A DNA stretch of 33,207 nucleotides. It comes from Rhodospirillales bacterium. GTDB taxonomy: Bacteria > Pseudomonadota > Alphaproteobacteria > UBA828. The position numbers and the translations under genes were made by a program. The notes beneath the pieces are model-generated. The model was not told the origin of the DNA. It was given only the letters and a program-made list of their open reading frames with translations, and searched no databases. Shown here in pieces: positions 24,236-33,207 of this stretch. Every line of letters begins with the position of its first letter. Within the stretch, counting starts at the first letter, position 1. The stretch spans positions 1 to 33,207 of the forward strand of contig JAPPHR010000137.1 in the NCBI GenBank assembly GCA_028820995.1. Direction: 5' to 3'.

Positions 24236-25336
24236 ATGAGCGCGCTCGACGGGTGGATCGACATCTGTCGCGCCGGCATCTGGCGCGACATGCAAGGCCA
24301 CGACGTTCGCCTCGACGAGGATCGGCTGGATCGTATCGTTGCCGCGCACGTTGCCGCCGATCCGGCGCCGGTCGTGATCGGCCATCCCGAAACCGACGCG
24401 CCGGCCTACGCCTGGATCGACGGGCTGCGCCGCATCGGCGATCGGCTGCAGGCGACGCTCCGCGACATCGCTCCCTCCTTCCGCGAGGCGGTGGAGGCGG
24501 GACGCTACAGCGGACGCTCGATCGCTCTCCAGGGCGACACGCTGCGCCACGTCGGATTCCTGGGCGGCCGTGCGCCGGCGGTGCCGGGGCTTGCACCGAC
24601 CCGCTTCTCATCCGCGCCCGAGACGGTGGTCGCCTTCACCAGGGATGGCGAAGGGGAGTCCCCGGACGACTCATCCACGGATGACCCCGACTCTCTCCAT
24701 ACCCCGGGGCGGGGAGAGGCCGGAGAGGAAGACTCCGAGGCCAGCGTTGAGGTCGCAGGCACGGAGAGCCGGGCTGCGGAGCAGCCCGGAGCGAGTGCCC
24801 GGCGACTGAGGGATATAGACGAACAAGAGGCTGCGCTCGCGGTGCGGGAAGAGGCGCTCCTGGCGAGGGAGGCGGCCGCCGCGGCAGACGAGCGCCGGCG
24901 GGCGGCGGAGGCAGCGATTGCCCCCCATGTCGAAGCGGGGCGCGTCCTGCCTGCGGAGCGCGCGGCGCTTGTCGCGCTGTTCGCCGCGCTGGGCGACGAC
25001 TCCGGCAGGGGCGCTGCAGGCGAAAACGCCACCATCGCCTTCGCGTCGGCCTCGGGCGGCGCGGCGCGGATGCTGCCCGCCGCCATTCTGGAACGATTCA
25101 TCGAGGGCCTTCCCAGGCGCGTCGACTACCGGACGCTCGCGGGCCGCCCCGTACCCGGCGCATCGGCGCTTACGGGCACTCATGAAGGTGCGGGTGAGGA
25201 CAGCGAGCGGATCGCTGCCGAGGCCCGCACGTTGATCGCGGCGGAGGCGGAGAAGGGCGTGACCCTTACACCCGCCGAAGCCGTCGACCGGGCGCGCGCG
25301 AAGCGCGGCCTCGGCATCGAAGGAGGAACCCAATGA
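24236..25336 (+). CDS. Mu gpI-like phage protease / scaffold
   Basis: This 366-aa protein combines a head-maturation protease with a scaffold, as in phage Mu gpI/gpZ. The N-terminus WIDICRAGIWRDMQG and VVIGHPETDAPAYAWIDGL are strong marks of the Mu-type protease family. The middle (about 135-185) is an acidic low-complexity linker partly encoded by a palindromic repeat. Residues 190-225 form an Ala/Glu/Arg coiled coil (EEALLAREAAAAADERRRAAEAA), the expected scaffold region, and the C-terminus ends LTPAEAVDRARAKRGL. The ATG at 24236 follows GCGGAGCG; the track's upstream start has no coding character. It is the first gene of a packed structural operon, and the next gene overlaps by four bases. 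Confidence 0.88.
   Translation: MSALDGWIDICRAGIWRDMQGHDVRLDEDRLDRIVAAHVAADPAPVVIGHPETDAPAYAWIDGLRRIGDRLQATLRDIAPSFREAVEAGRYSGRSIALQGDTLRHVGFLGGRAPAVPGLAPTRFSSAPETVVAFTRDGEGESPDDSSTDDPDSLHTPGRGEAGEEDSEASVEVAGTESRAAEQPGASARRLRDIDEQEAALAVREEALLAREAAAAADERRRAAEAAIAPHVEAGRVLPAERAALVALFAALGDDSGRGAAGENATIAFASASGGAARMLPAAILERFIEGLPRRVDYRTLAGRPVPGASALTGTHEGAGEDSERIAAEARTLIAAEAEKGVTLTPAEAVDRARAKRGLGIEGGTQ
24693..24718. repeat. Short GC-rich palindrome inside the protease gene
   Basis: CTCTCC (24693) and GGAGAG (24713) enclose CCCCGGGG, in frame within the protease linker. It resembles the larger repeat at 29904-30012, which has CTCTCC ... GGGGCGGAGAGG. It may be a worn copy of the same element. Confidence 0.45.
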
Positions 25337-25689
25337 GTCATGTGTTGATGTGGCGAGCGGCGGACGCCGGCGGTGCCGTCGCCTCCCACCGAATCGTCAA
25401 GTACGGCGATGCCGACGGCAAGGTGGTGCAGTCCACCGCGGCAGCGGATGCCCACGTCGGGATCTCCGGCCGGGCGTCGGCGGCCTCGGGCGGTCGCGTC
25501 GAGATCGCCCGCGCCGGCATCGCCGACATCGAATACGGCGGCAACGTCGCGCGTGGCGCGCTGCTGACCGCCGATGGCGACGGCAAGGCGGTGACCGCCG
25601 CCGACGGCAATCGCGTCATCGGCATCGCCGAGGTGTCCGGGGTCTCAGGCGACATCGGCCAGGTGCTGCTCGCGCCCGGCCTTCACTAA
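25333..25689 (+). CDS. DUF2190 family capsid decoration protein
   Basis: This 118-aa protein fits DUF2190, small beta-rich proteins found between protease and major capsid genes of many phages, probably head decoration or stabilisation. HVGISGRASAASGGRVEIARAGIADIEYGGNVARGALLTADGDGKAV and a final IGIAEVSGVSGDIGQVLLAPG are typical. The start overlaps the protease stop as ATGA, with AGGAGG seven bases upstream. The capsid gene follows after 10 bases. Confidence 0.85.
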   Translation: MSHVLMWRAADAGGAVASHRIVKYGDADGKVVQSTAAADAHVGISGRASAASGGRVEIARAGIADIEYGGNVARGALLTADGDGKAVTAADGNRVIGIAEVSGVSGDIGQVLLAPGLH

Positions 25690-25699
25690 GGGAAACACC

Positions 25700-26674
25700 A
25701 TGGATCACGAAACCATCCAGCTCGCTTCCGGCCCTTACGAGGTCCAGACCCGGCTCACGCAGATCGCGCAGGCGGCGATGCCGACCGGCCTCATCGCCGA
25801 CGAGGTCTGCCCGCGCGTCCGCACCGGGTATAAGTTCACCTACACGACGCTCACCGAAGAAGACCTGTTGACCATCCCCGACGTGCGGGCTTCCCGCGCC
25901 GGGCGACTCAACCAGGTCGAGTTCGGCGCCACCGACACCACCGCGAGCGTCGTGGATTACGGCCTGGAAGACCCCGTCCCTTCCCGCGACATCGAGGAGG
26001 CGCGTGCCCAGGAGGTCGCCTACGACCCGCTGGAGCAGGCCGCGGTCTCGACCGCCGAGCTGGTGAAGCTCGCCCGCGAGCGGCGTGTCGCCGACCTGGT
26101 GACGACGGCCTCCAACTACACGGCCGGTCATTCCACGACACTCAACGGCAACGCGCAGTGGAGTCACGCCAGCTCGAACCCGCGCAAGGCGATCCTGGAG
26201 GCCCTCGACGTGCCGCTGGTGCGCCCCAACACGCTGGTGTTCGGGCAGAGGGTATGGACCGCGTTGCGTCAGCACCCCAAGATCGTGGAAGCCGTGGCCG
26301 CCACCGGCGCCGGCGATCAGGCCTCCGGCATTGTGATGAAGGAGGCGGTCGCCGAGCTCTTCGAGGTCGAGCGCGTGCTGGTGGGCATGGCCTGGTACCA
26401 GAGCGCCAAGCGCGGCCAGGCCGATAGCTTCGCCCGCCTCTGGGGCAAGCACGCCTGCGCCATCCACGTGCGCCGCGACATGGCCTCCGCACGCGACCGG
26501 ATGCCGAAGTTCTGCTGGACCGCCGATGCCCTCGGCGGGCTGCAGGTCGGCACCTACGAGGAGCCCGGGCGTGGCGTCAATCGCGGCTCGACGGTGGTCA
26601 AGGTCAGCGATTGCGTCAAGGAGCTGGTGGCCTATGGCCGCGCCGGCTACCTCTGGCGCGACGCGGTGGCCTAG
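25700..26674 (+). CDS. Major capsid protein
   Basis: This 324-aa protein sits directly after protease and decoration genes, where the major head subunit is expected. It has an N-terminal YEVQTRLTQIAQAAMPTGLIADEVCPRV, a middle segment with RERRVADLVTTASNYTAGHSTTLNG, and LVRPNTLVFGQRVWTALRQHPKIVEAV, followed by AWYQSAKRG and FARLWGKHACAIHV. These are features of HK97-fold coat proteins of Mu/B3-like siphophages, though it is not a close match to Mu gpT. There is no long N-terminal delta domain, in keeping with a separate scaffold. Confidence rests on position and overall pattern. Confidence 0.82.
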   Translation: MDHETIQLASGPYEVQTRLTQIAQAAMPTGLIADEVCPRVRTGYKFTYTTLTEEDLLTIPDVRASRAGRLNQVEFGATDTTASVVDYGLEDPVPSRDIEEARAQEVAYDPLEQAAVSTAELVKLARERRVADLVTTASNYTAGHSTTLNGNAQWSHASSNPRKAILEALDVPLVRPNTLVFGQRVWTALRQHPKIVEAVAATGAGDQASGIVMKEAVAELFEVERVLVGMAWYQSAKRGQADSFARLWGKHACAIHVRRDMASARDRMPKFCWTADALGGLQVGTYEEPGRGVNRGSTVVKVSDCVKELVAYGRAGYLWRDAVA

Positions 26675-26677
26675 CCC

Positions 26678-27667
26678 ATGGCACCGGCTCCTACCGATCA
26701 CCTGTGCGGCCTCGGCTATTCGCCGGCGGACCAGCGCCAAAGCGCGGCCGAGGGCGAGGTCTGCCGGCACGCCGAGCGCCTGCTCAACATGGTCCACGCG
26801 TACTGCGAGATCCGGGATTCGTGGACCGGATGGCTGCGCTCGGGCGCCATGAGCCGCACCCTCTTCGAGCGGATCGTCCCGGAGATGCGCCACCTCCAGG
26901 GCGCCGAGCGGCGGATCGTCGAGGAGCCGAGCGTGACGCTGCTAGCGGTGCTCGACTACGCCGCTCGCGCCCGGACTGCGGTGCCGGCGTACACGCCCCG
27001 CGAGGGCATCGACTACCCGCAGCCGCCCGTCTCGGACGCGGTGCGGGAAGTCTGCGCGCGGATGATCGAGGACGCCGAGCAGGCTGCGCTCGCGGCTCGC
27101 CGGGCGAGCGCCCGCGCCTATGTCGCGCGCATGACCAGTGCGATCGAGCGCGAGCGGAAGGAGGAGGCCCGGCGCCAGAAGGCGATGGCAGAGGCCGGCG
27201 TGACCGAGACGCCGGAGGAGGCCGAGCGGGCGCAAGCCACGATGGAGGCGCGGATCGCGGTCTATGAGCGTGAGATTCGCCGCGTCTACGACGAGGCAAA
27301 CCTCAGCCCGGACGGCACGCCAACGGACGTAGCGAAGCAGGCGCCTGCAGTCGCCGAACGACCGGCCGATGCGGCCGGGCTCACGGTTGACTGGCAAGTC
27401 CACGCGCGCCGATGGGGCAGGACGATCCTGACACCGACGGCGGAGACCGCGCCGGCGTTCGCGCGCCGGCTGGTGTTGGTCGACCGGGGCAAGCGCGGCG
27501 GCGTGCTGCGTGCGTTTGGCGCGTCCGATCTCGTCGACCGCCTCAAGACGATCAACGGCGTTGCCGTTCGTGTGGCCCACCGCCGCCGCGACCGCTACGA
27601 GGCCCCGCTGACGCCCGCTCAAGTCCGGGAGATGCGCGGTCACGCCGAAAGGCGGGCGGCATCATGA
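26678..27667 (+). CDS. Unknown 329-aa phage protein with coiled coil
   Basis: I do not recognise this protein. It lies between the capsid gene and the gp36-like gene. Residues 1-80 are helical with HLCGLGYSPADQRQSAAEGEVC; about 125-205 is a long Ala/Arg/Glu coiled-coil stretch (RRASARAYVARMTSAIERERKEEARRQ); the C-terminal third has TVDWQVHARRWGRTI and LVLVDRGKRGGVLRAFGASDLVDRL, a more globular fold. Mu carries a much smaller gene (gp35) at this site. The next gene overlaps by four bases. A head-completion, internal virion or adaptor role is possible from position. Confidence 0.7.
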   Translation: MAPAPTDHLCGLGYSPADQRQSAAEGEVCRHAERLLNMVHAYCEIRDSWTGWLRSGAMSRTLFERIVPEMRHLQGAERRIVEEPSVTLLAVLDYAARARTAVPAYTPREGIDYPQPPVSDAVREVCARMIEDAEQAALAARRASARAYVARMTSAIERERKEEARRQKAMAEAGVTETPEEAERAQATMEARIAVYEREIRRVYDEANLSPDGTPTDVAKQAPAVAERPADAAGLTVDWQVHARRWGRTILTPTAETAPAFARRLVLVDRGKRGGVLRAFGASDLVDRLKTINGVAVRVAHRRRDRYEAPLTPAQVREMRGHAERRAAS

Positions 27668-28065
27668 CCTACGCAACGCGCGCGGACCTGGAGGCGCGCT
27701 TCGGCGCGGAAGAGGCGTTGGACCTCGCCGGCATGCAGGACGGGCGCATCGAATCCGCGCTCTCGGACGCGGCGGCCGAGATCGACGCGGCGCTCGCCGC
27801 TGCCTATCGCCTGCCGCTCGAGGGCGGCCCCTGGCCGCGGCTCATCGGCGTCGCCTGCGACCTGGCCCGGCGTGCGCTCTATGACGACGTCTCGCCTGCC
27901 GAAGTGAACGCGCGGGCCGAACGGGCGCAGGCGGCGCTGGCTCGCCTCGCCGCCGGCGGCGAAGCGCTCATCGACGACTCCGGCCACCCGGCGCCCCGGC
28001 GCGACACCGCCAAGCGCGCCGGCTCAACGCCCGCGCTTACGCCCGACAGCCTGGCGGGGCTGTGA
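27664..28065 (+). CDS. Mu gp36-like head-tail adaptor (DUF1320)
   Basis: This 133-aa protein opens with TYATRADLEARFGAEEALDLAG, the typical start of Mu gp36/DUF1320 head-completion proteins, and continues with IESALSDAAAEIDAALAAAYRLPL and ACDLARRALYDD. Such proteins form the connector ring between portal and tail. It overlaps the genes on both sides (ATGA at its start, one shared base at its end). Confidence 0.85.
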   Translation: MTYATRADLEARFGAEEALDLAGMQDGRIESALSDAAAEIDAALAAAYRLPLEGGPWPRLIGVACDLARRALYDDVSPAEVNARAERAQAALARLAAGGEALIDDSGHPAPRRDTAKRAGSTPALTPDSLAGL

Positions 28066-28514
28066 TGGCGGGGCAGGGGAGCAGCGTCGTGGTGGATACC
28101 GCGCCGCTCGACGGGGCGCTTGCGCGCCTGGCAGCGGTGCTGTCGCACCCCGATGGCATCATGGATGCGATCGGCAGATACTTGGTCGGCTCCGCGCACC
28201 GGCGCTTCGAGCGCGAGCGCGCGCCGGACGGCACGCCCTGGCTCAAGAGCGCGCGCGCGATTGCCGAGGGCGGCCGAACTCTCACGAATACCGGCCAGCT
28301 GCGTAACTCCATCGCGCACACGGTCACGGACGGCGGTCGCGCGGTCGAGGTGGGGTCGGGCGTCGTCTACGCCGCCATTCACCAGTTCGGCGGCCACGCG
28401 GGCAGGGGACGACGGGCAAGGATTCCGGCGCGCCCCTATCTCGGCGTGGACGAGCACGACCGCGATGCCATCACGCATATCGTTTCGCGCGCGCTGCAGG
28501 GAGCGCGGCCATGA
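28065..28514 (+). CDS. Mu gpG-like phage virion morphogenesis protein
   Basis: This 149-aa protein fits the phage virion morphogenesis family (Mu gpG type), needed for tail completion or head-tail joining. It has IGRYLVGSAHRRFERERAPDGTPW, LTNTGQLRNSIAHTV and VYAAIHQFGGHAG, then IPARPYLGV, all standard landmarks. The track begins at a GTG at 28062, but the ATG at 28065 shares one base with the previous stop (TGATG) and is preferred. In Mu this gene lies before the protease; here it lies after gp36, so gene order is changed. Confidence 0.87.
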   Translation: MAGQGSSVVVDTAPLDGALARLAAVLSHPDGIMDAIGRYLVGSAHRRFERERAPDGTPWLKSARAIAEGGRTLTNTGQLRNSIAHTVTDGGRAVEVGSGVVYAAIHQFGGHAGRGRRARIPARPYLGVDEHDRDAITHIVSRALQGARP

Positions 28515-28987
28515 CTCTCGCAGCGCTGGAAATGCACCTCGCCGACGCCATGGCGGAGCGGCTCACGGCGCTCAAGACGGACGACGGCGTGCCGGTCTTC
28601 GCCGCCGTTCTCAGCGCGCTCGACACGGCGGCGCTGACGGCCTGGCCCAAGGCTCCGGCAGCCCTGGTGCTGCCGATCTCCGACGAGGCCGAGGGCAGCA
28701 CGACGCGCCGGGTGGAGAGCGCGCCCGTGCAGCACATCGTCCGCGTCGGCGTCTCGGTGATGGTGGCCGCCCCCAACGACCGCGGCGGCGCGCGGGGGCG
28801 GGAGCGGCTCTCCGCCCTGCTCGCCCGCGCCAGGCAGGCGCTCGCCGGCTGGGCACCGCCCAGCCAGCGCGAGGTCCTGTCCTTCCGCCGCGGGCGGCTG
28901 GTCTCGCTGGAGGACGGGCGCCTGCAGTGGCTCGACGAGTACGAGATTCGCCGCGTCGCCCGCGCCGGCGTCGTGGACGTGGAATAG
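28511..28987 (+). CDS. Mu gp37-like / tail terminator-like protein
   Basis: This 158-aa protein lies between the gpG-like and tail tube genes, where the tail terminator is expected. LEMHLADAMAERLTALKTDDGVPVF and VRVGVSVMVAAPNDRGGARGRERLSALLARARQALAGW resemble gp37/DUF1834 and other terminator-like proteins that cap the tail tube. The start overlaps the previous stop by four bases. Fold assignment is by position and weak pattern. Confidence 0.7.
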   Translation: MTLAALEMHLADAMAERLTALKTDDGVPVFAAVLSALDTAALTAWPKAPAALVLPISDEAEGSTTRRVESAPVQHIVRVGVSVMVAAPNDRGGARGRERLSALLARARQALAGWAPPSQREVLSFRRGRLVSLEDGRLQWLDEYEIRRVARAGVVDVE

Positions 28988-28999
28988 GGAGACATCCGA

Positions 29000-29890
29000 A
29001 TGACCGCGCGAAGCATCGACAAGCGCACCGACAACATCCTCATCGGCGCCGGCGAAGTCTACCTCGACATCCACGAGGGAGGCGCTGCGACGGGCGAGCG
29101 CTACCTGGGCGATGCCGTGGGGGCGGAGCTGGAGGTCGCGACCGAGGAAACCACGGTCTTCTCCGGCTCGGGCCCCGTCGCGCGCGAGCTTACGCGCATC
29201 GCCCGCAGCGTGACGCGCACCGTGAGGCTCACGCTCCACGACATCAGCTTGGAGAACCTGGCGCTCTTCACGGTGGGCGAGGTGAAACGGCTCGACGCTG
29301 CGGACCACGTCTCGGGCGAGGCCGCCGTTCTGCGACCCGGCCGATGGTATCAGCTCGGCGGGGCCGACCGGCCCGCCGGCGTGCTCAGGCTGGCTGCGCC
29401 GGCCGACAAGGCCGCTGCGATCGCAGCCGTGACCGTCGCCACCACGGCGCAGGCGCCGGTGACGGCGACGCAGGCGATCGCCGCCGGGCAATTCGGGAAC
29501 GCTGCCAGCGAGACCGAGCAGAAGGGCCAGTACGTGGTGGACTATGCCCGCGCCCGCATCTTCTGGCTGCCTCCCGACCACGCGCTCTACGAAGCCAAGG
29601 CCGGCGTCGAAGCCGGCACCGCTCTCGCCGTCGATTACACGCCCGACGATGCGCCGCGGGACCAGGTGCAAGGCGCGTTCCGACAGTTAATCGGCGCCTT
29701 TCGCTACATCGAGGACGCGGCCGAGGGTCAGGGGCGGAACATCTATGCGCCGCGCTGCTCGATCCAGCCGGCCGGCGGGCTGACCCTGCTCGACGGGCGT
29801 TCGTCCGAGCAGCAGATTAGGCTCGCCGTCTCGATGCTGGAGCCGGGCGGCGGCCAACCCGCGCTCTACATCGACGGGCAGGCCGCCTGA
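29000..29890 (+). CDS. Major tail tube protein
   Basis: This 296-aa protein is placed between terminator-like and chaperone-like genes, as tail tube proteins are in long-tailed phages. ILIGAGEVYLDIHEGG, EVATEETTVFSGSGPVARELTRIARSVTRTVRLTLHDISLENLALF and a C-terminal QIRLAVSMLEP are compatible with the beta-rich tube fold. A Thr/Ala-rich stretch around 130-165 may be a surface insert. There is no sheath gene next to it, so the tail is probably non-contractile. GGGAGA is the ribosome site. Confidence 0.75.
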   Translation: MTARSIDKRTDNILIGAGEVYLDIHEGGAATGERYLGDAVGAELEVATEETTVFSGSGPVARELTRIARSVTRTVRLTLHDISLENLALFTVGEVKRLDAADHVSGEAAVLRPGRWYQLGGADRPAGVLRLAAPADKAAAIAAVTVATTAQAPVTATQAIAAGQFGNAASETEQKGQYVVDYARARIFWLPPDHALYEAKAGVEAGTALAVDYTPDDAPRDQVQGAFRQLIGAFRYIEDAAEGQGRNIYAPRCSIQPAGGLTLLDGRSSEQQIRLAVSMLEPGGGQPALYIDGQAA

Positions 29891-30570
29891 TGGACAGCTT
29901 ATCCCCCACCTCACCCCGGCCCTCTCCGCCCCCAGGGGCGGAGAGGGAGACCGCGCCGTCAACGCCTGCGTCCCCTCTCCGCCCTTCAGAGGGGAGGAGG
30001 ACAGGGGGTGGGCTTTCGGCCGAGAGCACAGTGGAAGCGGAGAGAGGCCTGCACCACCCAAGCGCCGCCGACCACGAGCTCTCCGTGCTGTTCCCGGATC
30101 GGGATGTGACGGTGTGGGACCCTGACACCGGCGACGCAGTATCGCTCACCGTGCGGGAGTTCTGTTTCCGCGAAGGGCTGGAGGCGACGGCGCTGGCGCG
30201 CCCACTGCTCCAGGCCCTCGCCGCCCTGGTGCCAATCGGGGAAGGCGGCTTGGAGGCCGGGGAGGAGGGGCCGGATGCGCTCGCGATCGAAGGCGCGCTC
30301 GCCGCCCATGCGGCGCTCTGGCTGGAGCTCGCCGCCCGCGCCTGCGGCCGGGACGCGGACTGGCTCGCGCGCCTGAGCGATGCGGACGGGCGCGCGCTCT
30401 CGGAGGCGATGTGGGCCGCGAACGGCGCATTTTTTTTGCGCCGCGTCGTGGCCCAGGTGGCGGCGCGGGCGAAGCGCGAGACGGCGAGTCCGTCGCCCTC
30501 TACCGGGTGCTCGACATCCTCGTCCGCGCCGGCCACGGGCGCGGCCACGTCGAGCTCAGCGAGCGCCTGA
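29890..30570 (+). CDS. Tail assembly chaperone-like protein with repeat-encoded N-terminus
   Basis: This 226-aa ORF lies between tail tube and tape measure, the place of the G/GT tail chaperone. The first about 45 residues are Pro/Ser/Gly-rich and are encoded by a palindromic repeat. The real domain seems to begin near HELSVLFPDRDVTVWD and LTVREFCFREGLEATALARPLLQAL. A GTG at 30031 just after the repeat is a possible original start. Coding character is good until about 30482 (AAQVAARAKRE-like segment), after which this frame turns to low-complexity Ser/Thr/Pro, while the -1 frame becomes clearly coding. A run of eight T at 30430-30437 offers a slippery site. The ATG overlaps the tube gene stop (TGATG). 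The product may thus be two proteins, short and frameshifted, or the gene may carry a deletion. Confidence 0.65.
   Translation: MDSLSPTSPRPSPPPGAERETAPSTPASPLRPSEGRRTGGGLSAESTVEAERGLHHPSAADHELSVLFPDRDVTVWDPDTGDAVSLTVREFCFREGLEATALARPLLQALAALVPIGEGGLEAGEEGPDALAIEGALAAHAALWLELAARACGRDADWLARLSDADGRALSEAMWAANGAFFLRRVVAQVAARAKRETASPSPSTGCSTSSSAPATGAATSSSASA
29904..30012. repeat. Palindromic repeat element in frame at the start of the chaperone gene
   Basis: The element has a perfect 13-base inverted repeat (CCCTCTCCGCCCC at 29920, complement at 29935) with a two-base loop, then a second hairpin CCCCTCT (29972) / AGAGGGG (29988), framed by CCCACC (29905) and GGTGGG (30007). This build, about 110 bp with two hairpins, matches the dispersed intergenic palindromes common in high-GC alphaproteobacteria. 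It contains no stop in the gene's frame and lies 14 bases after the start codon. Confidence 0.75.
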
Positions 30571-30629
30571 CGTGGCGGCAGATCGTCCTCTTCTACCGCG
30601 CGGCCACCGAGCCGATGGCAGGCGAATGA
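30438..30629 (+). CDS. -1 frame continuation of the tail chaperone (possible GT-type frameshift product)
   Basis: From about 30485 the -1 frame reads DGESVALYRVLDILVRAGHG and then LSERLTWRQIVLFYRAATEPMAGE, with G or C at nearly all third positions, so it is a real coding segment. The only start in this frame is a GTG at 30411 inside the upstream gene with no ribosome site, and the first part of it (APRRGPGGGAGEAR) has poor coding character. It is therefore most likely the extension of the upstream ORF, reached by -1 slippage on T-TTT-TTG (30432-30438) or cut off from it by a one-base deletion near 30480. It ends 13 bases before the tape measure start. Lambda-like tails use such a G-T extension to recruit the tape measure. 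Confidence 0.55.
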   Translation, partial: APRRGPGGGAGEARDGESVALYRVLDILVRAGHGRGHVELSERLTWRQIVLFYRAATEPMAGE

Positions 30630-30641
30630 GGGACATGAACA

Positions 30642-31361
30642 TTGCCTACTGATCTGGAACTCGCGCTCCGCGTTCGTGCGGACATGCGAGAGGCGCTCCA
30701 GGGAATCGGCACGCTGAACCGGTCCCTCGGCGATACCGCGCGAAGGGGCGGAGAGGCCGGCGCATCGCTGACGGGCGCAACCGGTGCGGCACAGGCGTTC
30801 AGCGTGGCGCTCGGCGCCTTAGGCCGCGAGAGCGGGAGCACCCTCGGCCAGGCCAGAGACGCGGCCGAGACGGTCTTCGGTGCCATGGAGTCGGCGCTCC
30901 AGCGGTTCGTCACCACGGGGAGCGTCTCGTTTTCCAGCTTCGCCGATTCCGTGATCGCGGATCTCGCGCGCATCGCCGCGCGCCGCTACATCACGGGGCC
31001 GCTGGCCGATCTGCTGTTCGGCGGCTTCCTCGGCGGCGCGTCGCCTGGCTCCGCCCGCCTGTTCCACGCCGGCGGCACGGTCGGCGCGTTGGGCGGCGTC
31101 ACACGCAACGCCGGCCTGCGCGCGGACGAGGTGCCGATCGTCGCGCAGCGCGGCGAGACTATCCTGCCGCGCGGCGCGCAGATCGTCGCCCCTTCGATCC
31201 ATGTCAATTTCGAGAATCGCGGCACACCGCAGCGCGAGGTGAGCCGCGAGGTGCGCCTCGATCCGCGCGGCCTCGTGGTCTCGATCGTCACCGACGACAT
31301 CCGGCGCGGCGGGCCGATCCGCCAGACCATGCAACGCGAGCTCGGGCGAGGGCTCTCATGA
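30642..31361 (+). CDS. Very short tail tape measure protein
   Basis: This 239-aa protein has the start TDLELALRVRADMREALQGIGTLNRSL of tape measure proteins and the lambda gpH-like C-terminal segment FGAMESALQRFVTTGSVSFSSFADSVIADLARIAARRYI (quoted in two parts as AMESALQRFVTTGSVSFSSF and ADSVIADLARIAARRYI), then a glycine-rich FHAGGTVGALGG and VPIVAQRGETILPRGAQIV. The long helical middle that sets tail length in normal phages is missing; alphaproteobacterial gene transfer agents have a similarly short tape measure. The start is TTG with GAGGGA eight bases upstream; an ATG at 30684 would remove the conserved opening. The next gene overlaps by four bases. Confidence 0.82.
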   Translation: MPTDLELALRVRADMREALQGIGTLNRSLGDTARRGGEAGASLTGATGAAQAFSVALGALGRESGSTLGQARDAAETVFGAMESALQRFVTTGSVSFSSFADSVIADLARIAARRYITGPLADLLFGGFLGGASPGSARLFHAGGTVGALGGVTRNAGLRADEVPIVAQRGETILPRGAQIVAPSIHVNFENRGTPQREVSREVRLDPRGLVVSIVTDDIRRGGPIRQTMQRELGRGLS

Positions 31362-31726
31362 GTGCGCTGGTCTGGCCTTCCTACGCAGCGGTCGAGGCGG
31401 ACGGCTATGCCGTCTCCGACGATACCGATGTTCAACGGACGCCCTTCGACGACGGGCTGGTGCGTCAGGAGCGGCGCTATTCGAGCGCGCTGACGGCGCT
31501 GTCGATCACCGCCCTGCTCGCAAACGACACCGACTATCGGCGCTTCCGCGCCTGGGCCGGCGACTGCGCGCACCGCTGGTTCGCGTGGACCGCGCCGGAG
31601 AGCGGCCAGGTGCACCAGGTGCGCGTGCGCGGCGGCGCGGGCGGCATCGATTACACGGCGCGCATTGGCCCGGACGGCCGGCGCTCGTGGGAGGCGACCC
31701 TCGATCTTGAGGGCGTCGGGCTCTAG
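31358..31726 (+). CDS. Small phage tail protein, unknown
   Basis: I do not recognise a family for this 122-aa protein. It has YAAVEADGYAVSDDTDVQRT, SALTALSITALLANDTDYRRFRAW and a beta-rich end VHQVRVRGGAGGIDYTARIG...WEATLDLEG. The pattern, with a first half that compares to a reference and a tail-like end, is seen in small minor tail proteins next to tape measures. It overlaps the tape measure stop as ATGA. A distal tail role is inferred from position. Confidence 0.65.
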   Translation: MSALVWPSYAAVEADGYAVSDDTDVQRTPFDDGLVRQERRYSSALTALSITALLANDTDYRRFRAWAGDCAHRWFAWTAPESGQVHQVRVRGGAGGIDYTARIGPDGRRSWEATLDLEGVGL

Positions 31727-31744
31727 CGAACGAAAGGACTCACC

Positions 31745-32137
31745 ATGCCGATTACAGCGGCCGAGCAGAACCGGGCGGTGCTCGCCATCGCGGGTGCCGG
31801 CGACGATTACCTGGCCCTCGCCACCGCCGACCCGACGGCGGCGGGCAACAACCTGATCGCTGCCGCCGGCCGGGCCGAGCTCGACCTCGGCCGCGAGAAC
31901 GCCGACCCTGCGGGCGCAGTGAAGAACCTGGCGGCGGTGGACTTCGCGCCGACGGCGCTGGTCGAGAACGCCACGCACTTCGCCATCATGACGGCTGCGG
32001 GCGGCGGCGCTGTGCGCGCCTGGGGCCGGCTGGTGGACGATCAGGGCCAGGACGCAACGGTCAGCCAACAGTCCACCGACGACATCCTCCGGGTGCCCGC
32101 CGGCGCCGTCGTGATCCGCATTCCCTCGGGCGCCTAG
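31745..32137 (+). CDS. Small phage tail or fibre-associated protein, unknown
   Basis: This 130-aa protein (MPITAAEQNRAVLAIAGAG) is Ala/Asp-rich and seems beta-structured in its second half (FAIMTAAGGGAVRAWGRLVDDQGQ, DILRVPAGAVVIRIPSG). I do not recognise it with certainty; the pattern fits small fibre-base proteins. It starts 18 bases after the previous stop with GAAAGGA upstream and is followed after 27 bases by the large repeat-bearing gene. Confidence 0.62.
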   Translation: MPITAAEQNRAVLAIAGAGDDYLALATADPTAAGNNLIAAAGRAELDLGRENADPAGAVKNLAAVDFAPTALVENATHFAIMTAAGGGAVRAWGRLVDDQGQDATVSQQSTDDILRVPAGAVVIRIPSGA

Positions 32138-32164
32138 AGACGAGCCGGCGGCGGCGGGGGTTCG

Positions 32165-33207
32165 ATGACTCGGCAGGTCCTGGAGCTCACCGGACTCGGC
32201 GGCGAGGGCTGGCGCGGCGCCGAGCTGATCGATCCTGCGCTGATCGCGGGCAGCGGGACCGCCTACCTGCGCCGGGTGCGCCGAAACGGCAACAGCCTGC
32301 AAGTGCGGCTCTCGGCGACGGCCGACGACCGGCCCGAAGATGCCGGGCCGGAGTTCTCGACCGCGCTCGAGACCTCGGCGCGCGCCTTCACCTTCACCGA
32401 CGGCGCGGACACCCTCGTGCTGAAAGGCCCCGGCCACGAGGACAACACCTTCGCCGACGAGACGGAGCCCTACTTCTGGACTCCCGGCAACACCGCCGAA
32501 TTCACGGCGTGGTTCGGAAGCACGCGTCAAGACTTCACCCTCACCCTCGACGACGGCGTGCTCGAACATACGGTGCGCGGCGGGGCTGCGGCCGGCGCGC
32601 CGGAGGCCCGTGCCCGCGTCGACGTGATCCTGCCGCTCGGCCTCGCCGACTTTGACGCGGAGGGGCTCCAGGTCGACGTTCTGGCGCTGATCCGCGCCGG
32701 TGCCGGCCCGGCGGGCACCGTCTATGCCGCGCCGCCGCGCGGCAGCGTGGGCGCGCTGGTGGACGGTGAGCTCGGCCTCGGCGCCGGCGACGCACCGATC
32801 ACTCGCATCCGGCGGCGCAACGGCAACATGCTCCTCATCAACGACGACGATCCGCTTTCGCTTGCCGGCTATTTCAACCCCGGCGGACCCGGGGCCGATC
32901 TCACGCTTCATATTCGGACCCGCGCCGGCGCGGCCTCGCTTCCCGTGATCGAGCACGGCCGCGAGGGCAGCGACTTTATCCAGTTCGGCCCACTCGGCAC
33001 CGATCTCCAGGCTCTCCTCGACGGCATCGGCAACGGCGATCTCTTCATTTTCGCGCTGGCGCGCCCGGCGGCGATCACGGTGCGGGGCGCAGCCGAAGCC
33101 GGCGCGGCCGAAGCGGTGGCCCGCGTGCTGCGCGTCACGCCGCCCATCCGCACGGTCCGGGGCACCGCTACCGCCGGCGAGGCCGAGGCCGGCCGCACCT
33201 GGCTGCT
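32165..33207 (+). CDS. Large repeat-bearing phage tail protein (partial, runs off the window)
   Basis: The frame opens at an ATG (MTRQVLELTGLGGEGWRGAE) and stays open for 347 codons to the window end; the ORF track misses it because it has no stop. A GGCGGGGG-type site lies upstream. The sequence is beta-rich with repeated pieces: RRVRRNGNSL and RIRRRNGNML, and three copies of TVRGxAxAGxxEA (nt 32570, 33077, 33152). FTAWFGSTRQDFTLTLDD and IQFGPLGTDLQALLDGIGNGDLFIFAL look like small beta-sandwich units. It is probably a tail fibre, hub or adhesin with tandem domains. Identity is inferred from position and repeats. Confidence 0.72.
   Translation, partial: MTRQVLELTGLGGEGWRGAELIDPALIAGSGTAYLRRVRRNGNSLQVRLSATADDRPEDAGPEFSTALETSARAFTFTDGADTLVLKGPGHEDNTFADETEPYFWTPGNTAEFTAWFGSTRQDFTLTLDDGVLEHTVRGGAAAGAPEARARVDVILPLGLADFDAEGLQVDVLALIRAGAGPAGTVYAAPPRGSVGALVDGELGLGAGDAPITRIRRRNGNMLLINDDDPLSLAGYFNPGGPGADLTLHIRTRAGAASLPVIEHGREGSDFIQFGPLGTDLQALLDGIGNGDLFIFALARPAAITVRGAAEAGAAEAVARVLRVTPPIRTVRGTATAGEAEAGRTWL
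32570..33190 (+). repeat. Three copies of a 13-residue motif in the tail protein
   Basis: TVRGGAAAGAPEA (32570-32608), TVRGAAEAGAAEA (33077-33115) and TVRGTATAGEAEA (33152-33190) are in frame. The spacing is 507 then 75 bases, so whole domains and short linkers both seem to have been copied. More copies may lie beyond the window. Confidence 0.8.

Follow-up and report, generated by a model that had tools for sequence, protein, structure and literature searches.

The tail assembly chaperone gene of a phage-derived capsid-tail cluster in an uncultured alphaproteobacterial genus very probably undergoes programmed -1 frameshifting as in lambda G/G-T, brought about by ribosomal slippage on the heptamer T TTT TTG. 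Judging from sequence, we give this reading a probability of about 0.87. In the window (the whole stretch of 33,207 bases analysed here) the gene follows that of the major tail protein and precedes that of the tape measure protein, the families being ordered phrog_807, phrog_1442 and tape measure. Its product matched the Pfam family DUF6631 (E 7e-22) and PHROG 1442, a tail assembly chaperone family (E 7e-28). When 289 genomes drawn from the class were searched, this chaperone family was above the cut-off in a single one, the window's own.

The T8 run that forms most of the heptamer is found in a window with 69% G+C. The codons across the site read ...GCA TTT TTT TTG CGC..., so that the heptamer is in phase with the chaperone ORF; the preliminary description had already pointed to this run and heptamer, and both the coordinates and the codon phase bear it out. 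Past the heptamer the 0-frame continues for 43 codons until the TGA at 30568-30570, and the -1 frame remains open beyond it (Table 1). A slip at this point would produce a G-T protein of 246 aa (183 + 63). The codons involved are little used in the window, TTT representing 6.9% of the Phe codons and TTG 6.1% of the Leu codons, and the chance from codon use of Phe-Phe-Leu being encoded as TTT TTT TTG is about 3e-4.

Table 1 Location of the main features in the window
Feature	Position	Strand	Family, evidence or remark
Phage-derived capsid-tail cluster	24242..33207	+	profile families; cut by the contig end
Major tail protein	29000..29890	+	phrog_807
0-frame chaperone gene (gpG-like), 226 aa	29890..30570	+	PF20336 DUF6631, phrog_1442
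Interspersed hairpin-forming repeat in the 5' part of the chaperone ORF	29903..30018	+	MFE -67.7 kcal/mol
T8 run	30430..30437	+	the window's single homopolymer of at least 7 bases
Slippery heptamer T TTT TTG	30432..30438	+	kept in 6 near loci; T TTT TT(T/C) farther out
-1-frame extension (T domain), 63 aa	30438..30629	+	ends at TGA 30627-30629
Variable, indel-rich stretch directly 3' of the slip site	30439..30483	+	homologue alignment
Overlap, constraint apparent in both frames	30484..30567	+	synonymous variation depressed
Short tape measure protein, 239 aa, TTG start	30642..31361	+	Tape_meas_lam_C

The neighbouring major tail protein was used as query against 60 related genomes, and the matches were confined to the genus; a search of IMG/VR added two loci (L016 and L017). 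The slip site was aligned over eight loci (L009-L014, L016 and L017), in seven of which the upstream frame and the extension stand in the same -1 relation, L014 being the exception. Six of them (L009-L013 and L016) have T8 with T TTT TTG and L017 reads CCT TTT TTT, i.e. the heptamer T TTT TTT. Over 40-63 aa the extension is about 70-86% identical in the seven loci. A wider scan of IMG/VR provided more distant versions (L062-L070, 36-45% protein identity to the query) and, with the exception of L063, all of them have a codon ending in T (GAT, TCT, CAT, CGT or CCT) before TTT TTT or TTT TTC, so that the heptamer reads T TTT TT(T/C) and leads into a matching -1 frame. In Pseudomonas phage MP38, whose record lists gpG together with a joined gpGT, the corresponding site reads GGT TTT TTC. 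The link to this phage is based on a weak 0-frame match (E 0.2) along with the order of the genes, the PHROG family and the alignment at the slippery site. The -1 tail alone had no match among phage records because it is short and diverged. The direction of the shift is -1 throughout the homologues save L014 (genome G006) and L063, where the slippery run is shorter by one T. In these two the usual end of G is read in the -1 frame, and only a shift of +1 or -2 would reach the T domain. An assembly error, a mutation or a changed mechanism might account for the missing T.

Selection was followed by computing pN/pS frame by frame over the eight aligned sequences. Upstream of the T run the value was 0.38 in the 0-frame versus 1.5-2.0 in the other frames, directly after the run (positions 30439-30483) it was roughly 0.7-1.2 in all frames, in the overlap it was 0.55 in the -1 frame, and past the 0-frame stop it was 0.28 in the -1 frame versus 1.75 in the 0-frame. 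The T domain gave dN/dS values of 0.27-0.42 with the window as reference. In the overlap, synonymous variation (0.16-0.24) was about half or less of that found outside (0.42-0.44), as in dual coding. The move of coding character into the -1 frame that had been noticed in the single sequence is thus backed by the homologues. It had seemed to happen near 30485 because the stretch directly after the run is weakly constrained in every frame. There the -1 frame reads a Gly/Pro/Ala-rich linker and the 0-frame reads RRVVAQVAARA..., a peptide alike in most homologues, which explains why the preliminary description saw 0-frame coding for some 45 bases more and implies that 0-frame coding does not simply end with the T run.

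The anatomy and phase of the site, its conservation and the selection on both frames can be read directly in the sequences, and from them we infer that slippage occurs and that it is ribosomal. Most ribosomes would stay in the 0-frame from the start at 29890 to the TGA at 30568 and make the chaperone G, of 226 aa. A minority would move back by one base at T TTT TTG, the P-site Phe codon TTT re-pairing with TTT and the A-site Leu codon TTG being exchanged for TTT, and would resume at GCG 30438 to make G-T, with the T domain at its C-terminus. The G protein would then coat the tape measure protein and T would bring in the major tail protein, starting tube growth. The gene position, the chaperone family, the in-phase heptamer and the conserved -1 extension all fit the lambda-like reading proposed originally.

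No stimulatory element was supported. Folding of the single sequence downstream gave a z of -1.24 for a stem-loop, and a conserved downstream RNA structure, sought by consensus folding with six and with eight sequences, scored z values of -0.57 and -0.27. No internal Shine-Dalgarno motif consistently placed across the homologues was seen, and a GGAGG-like motif about 25 bases upstream was rejected as stimulator since it is not kept in all of them. Strong heptamers may need little stimulatory help.

Slippage might also take place during transcription, the RNA polymerase slipping on T8 and producing some mRNAs with U9, with identical protein products. A run of seven or eight Ts amid 69% G+C suits this mechanism as well, and mixed mRNAs could still arise in L014 and L063 despite the T that they lack. 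Sequence cannot separate the two kinds of slippage. However, conservation bears on the codon phase, the preceding codon ending in T, and MP38 and L070 (CCT TTT TTC) retain the phase of the heptamer with six Ts, probably too few for efficient polymerase slippage, and we consider the transcriptional origin unlikely. Even more improbable would be a separate small gene in the -1 frame with its own internal start and no frameshift. This frame is open upstream of the T run and contains in-frame GTG codons, but the alignment revealed for it no conserved start accompanied by a ribosome-binding site, and a separate gene leaves the conserved in-phase heptamer of rare codons unexplained. Finally, a single-frame gene broken near 30480 by the deletion of one base or by a sequencing error, regarded as a fair rival in the preliminary description and favoured by the conserved peptide past the T run, has a negligible probability and, as a deletion, is refuted by the homologues, since all the aligned loci but L014 keep the frame relation, their indels in the variable stretch are of 6, 12 and 6 bases (multiples of three), distant relatives and the annotated phage MP38 share the arrangement, and not one reads through in a single frame with an extra base.

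The frameshift is a device common among long-tailed phages and already described in D3112-like ones. Compared with MP38 (gpG/gpGT, ORF42/43) and the D3112/Casadabanvirus group, the chaperone is related, occupies an equal place in the gene order and has the -1 shift at T TTT TT(C/G) on the same Phe-Phe. In contrast, the heptamer of the window is found one codon further downstream, the protein identity is below 40%, the tape measure has about 240 aa versus more than 1100 in those phages, and the element of the window is located at a fixed chromosomal site. The chaperone of lambda belongs to another protein family and uses another slippery heptamer. What both have in common is a chaperone and a minor frameshifted fusion just ahead of the tape measure gene (PMC5009743). 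In Pseudomonas Mu-like phages a -1 shift on T TTT TTC, 43 codons before the stop, has been reported, and PaMx73 has the same 43 codons of 0-frame after the heptamer as the window (PMC4378225). The cluster also resembles phage Mu in its other genes (Gp36, Portal_Mu, Phage_tail_S), but the tail chaperone genes of Mu use a -2 shift (PMC5009743, PMC4378225), whereas that of the window is -1 and only L014 and L063 would call for -2 or +1.

Host genes occupy most of the window from 1 to 23.4 kb and the phage genes begin at about 24.2 kb with the protease and capsid genes. The cluster codes for a maturation protease, the 25333 ORF, the major capsid protein, a gp36-like adaptor, a Phage_tail_S neck protein, the tail terminator, the major tail protein, the chaperone, the tape measure and tail-tip genes; no terminase, portal or transposase adjoining it was found within the window. 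The tape measure has 258-280 aa in the congeners and, judging by the record coordinates, 1232 aa in MP38; in L017, on a contig that also bears a Mu transposase, it reaches at least 752 aa. The junction of the cluster with fabG-hisD-maoC was also found in two other genomes (G007 and G001) and in contig L044, G005 has the junction at gene 23528 in common with the window, and the other end of the cluster adjoins the atp operon in G007, G006 and G002. The major capsid protein is present in all eight genomes of the genus. There is a second shared site, with a terminase and a Mu-type portal beside pyruvate carboxylase, in G001, G002, G005 and G007. In the window's own genome (a 67%-complete assembly) the portal appears between pyruvate carboxylase and secF, and TerL was not found; in G006 the terminase adjoins the capsid cluster. 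The dN/dS values of the cluster genes against the congeners were mostly 0.1-0.45 and their dS mostly within the range of the host genes. To judge by these values, the cluster is under purifying selection and diverging at host-like rates. By this evidence it is no ordinary prophage and has been passed down vertically at a constant place in the chromosome.

These features make the cluster a candidate gene transfer agent (GTA) of Mu-like (D3112-like) origin. They fit the genomic criteria put forward for GTAs as viriforms (PMC9662315). As regards endogenisation over several loci, the genes are found beside the atp operon and/or the fabG-hisD cluster and at the TerL/portal site of the four genomes mentioned above. 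Vertical inheritance and co-divergence are indicated by the shared flanks, the presence of the major capsid protein throughout the genus and dS values mostly in the range of host genes. As to the set of head, packaging and tail genes, TerL was not found in the incomplete genome of the window and tail genes are missing in G002. The GTA_TIM domain (PF13547) was found in none of 15 genomes, including the eight of the genus, the Caulobacter control being positive, and with this domain absent an origin of the RcGTA type (Rhodogtaviriformidae) is unsupported. Like RcGTA, the gene transfer agent of Rhodobacter capsulatus, the cluster combines capsid and tail genes retained by vertical descent and has a very short tape measure, that of RcGTA (g11) having about 216 aa as estimated from segment lengths (PMC7296036). 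It differs in that its genes are of the Mu/D3112 type. Because the RcGTA marker is absent, and packaging and transfer are only candidate functions, we have not assigned the cluster as a member of the GTAs.

Tentatively, and at slightly less than even odds, we propose that a Mu/D3112-like transposable phage was domesticated here into a GTA, separately from the three recognised families of such agents. Its genes would have been distributed over at least two loci, its tape measure reduced at least about threefold, and the G/G-T frameshift retained by selection for building a very short tail. The alternative would be a slowly decaying ancestral prophage, or a prophage kept for another use. No description of a Mu-like GTA was found in the titles and abstracts available to us, which cover the literature incompletely.

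If the slippage reading is right, a device of D3112-like phages is now confirmed in an uncultured alphaproteobacterial genus and DUF6631 gains a likely function. The surroundings merit more attention than the frameshift itself. Were the cluster a GTA, it would represent an additional origin of these agents, from a transposable phage, and the retained frameshift would suggest that the chaperone ratio still matters with a tape measure of only about 240 aa, which would help to test the need for G/G-T in tail initiation, beyond length alone.

Some individual genomes of the genus show further peculiarities. In G002 (L047, G002:C87) the tail genes between the homologue of gene 26678 and the J-like gene have been lost, and the capsid and J genes kept. 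In G006 (L076) a short ORF beyond the terminase, perhaps Mor-like, resembles an ORF at the contig end of L017, and a further one has the look of an HTH regulator, both judged by eye; they are possible remnants of an ancestral Mu-like prophage. The major tail protein of the window is 99% identical to that of G007 (L018), with a dS of 0.04 versus about 0.3-0.6 in the neighbouring genes, and has likely been recombined recently between species. The repeat located in the 5' part of the chaperone ORF belongs to an insert of some 174 bp that does not interrupt the reading frame and is missing from the homologues, no copy of the repeat having been found in the chaperone gene of the relatives. Within the same genome it gave 17 other matches, a few being the reverse complement of the repeat itself.
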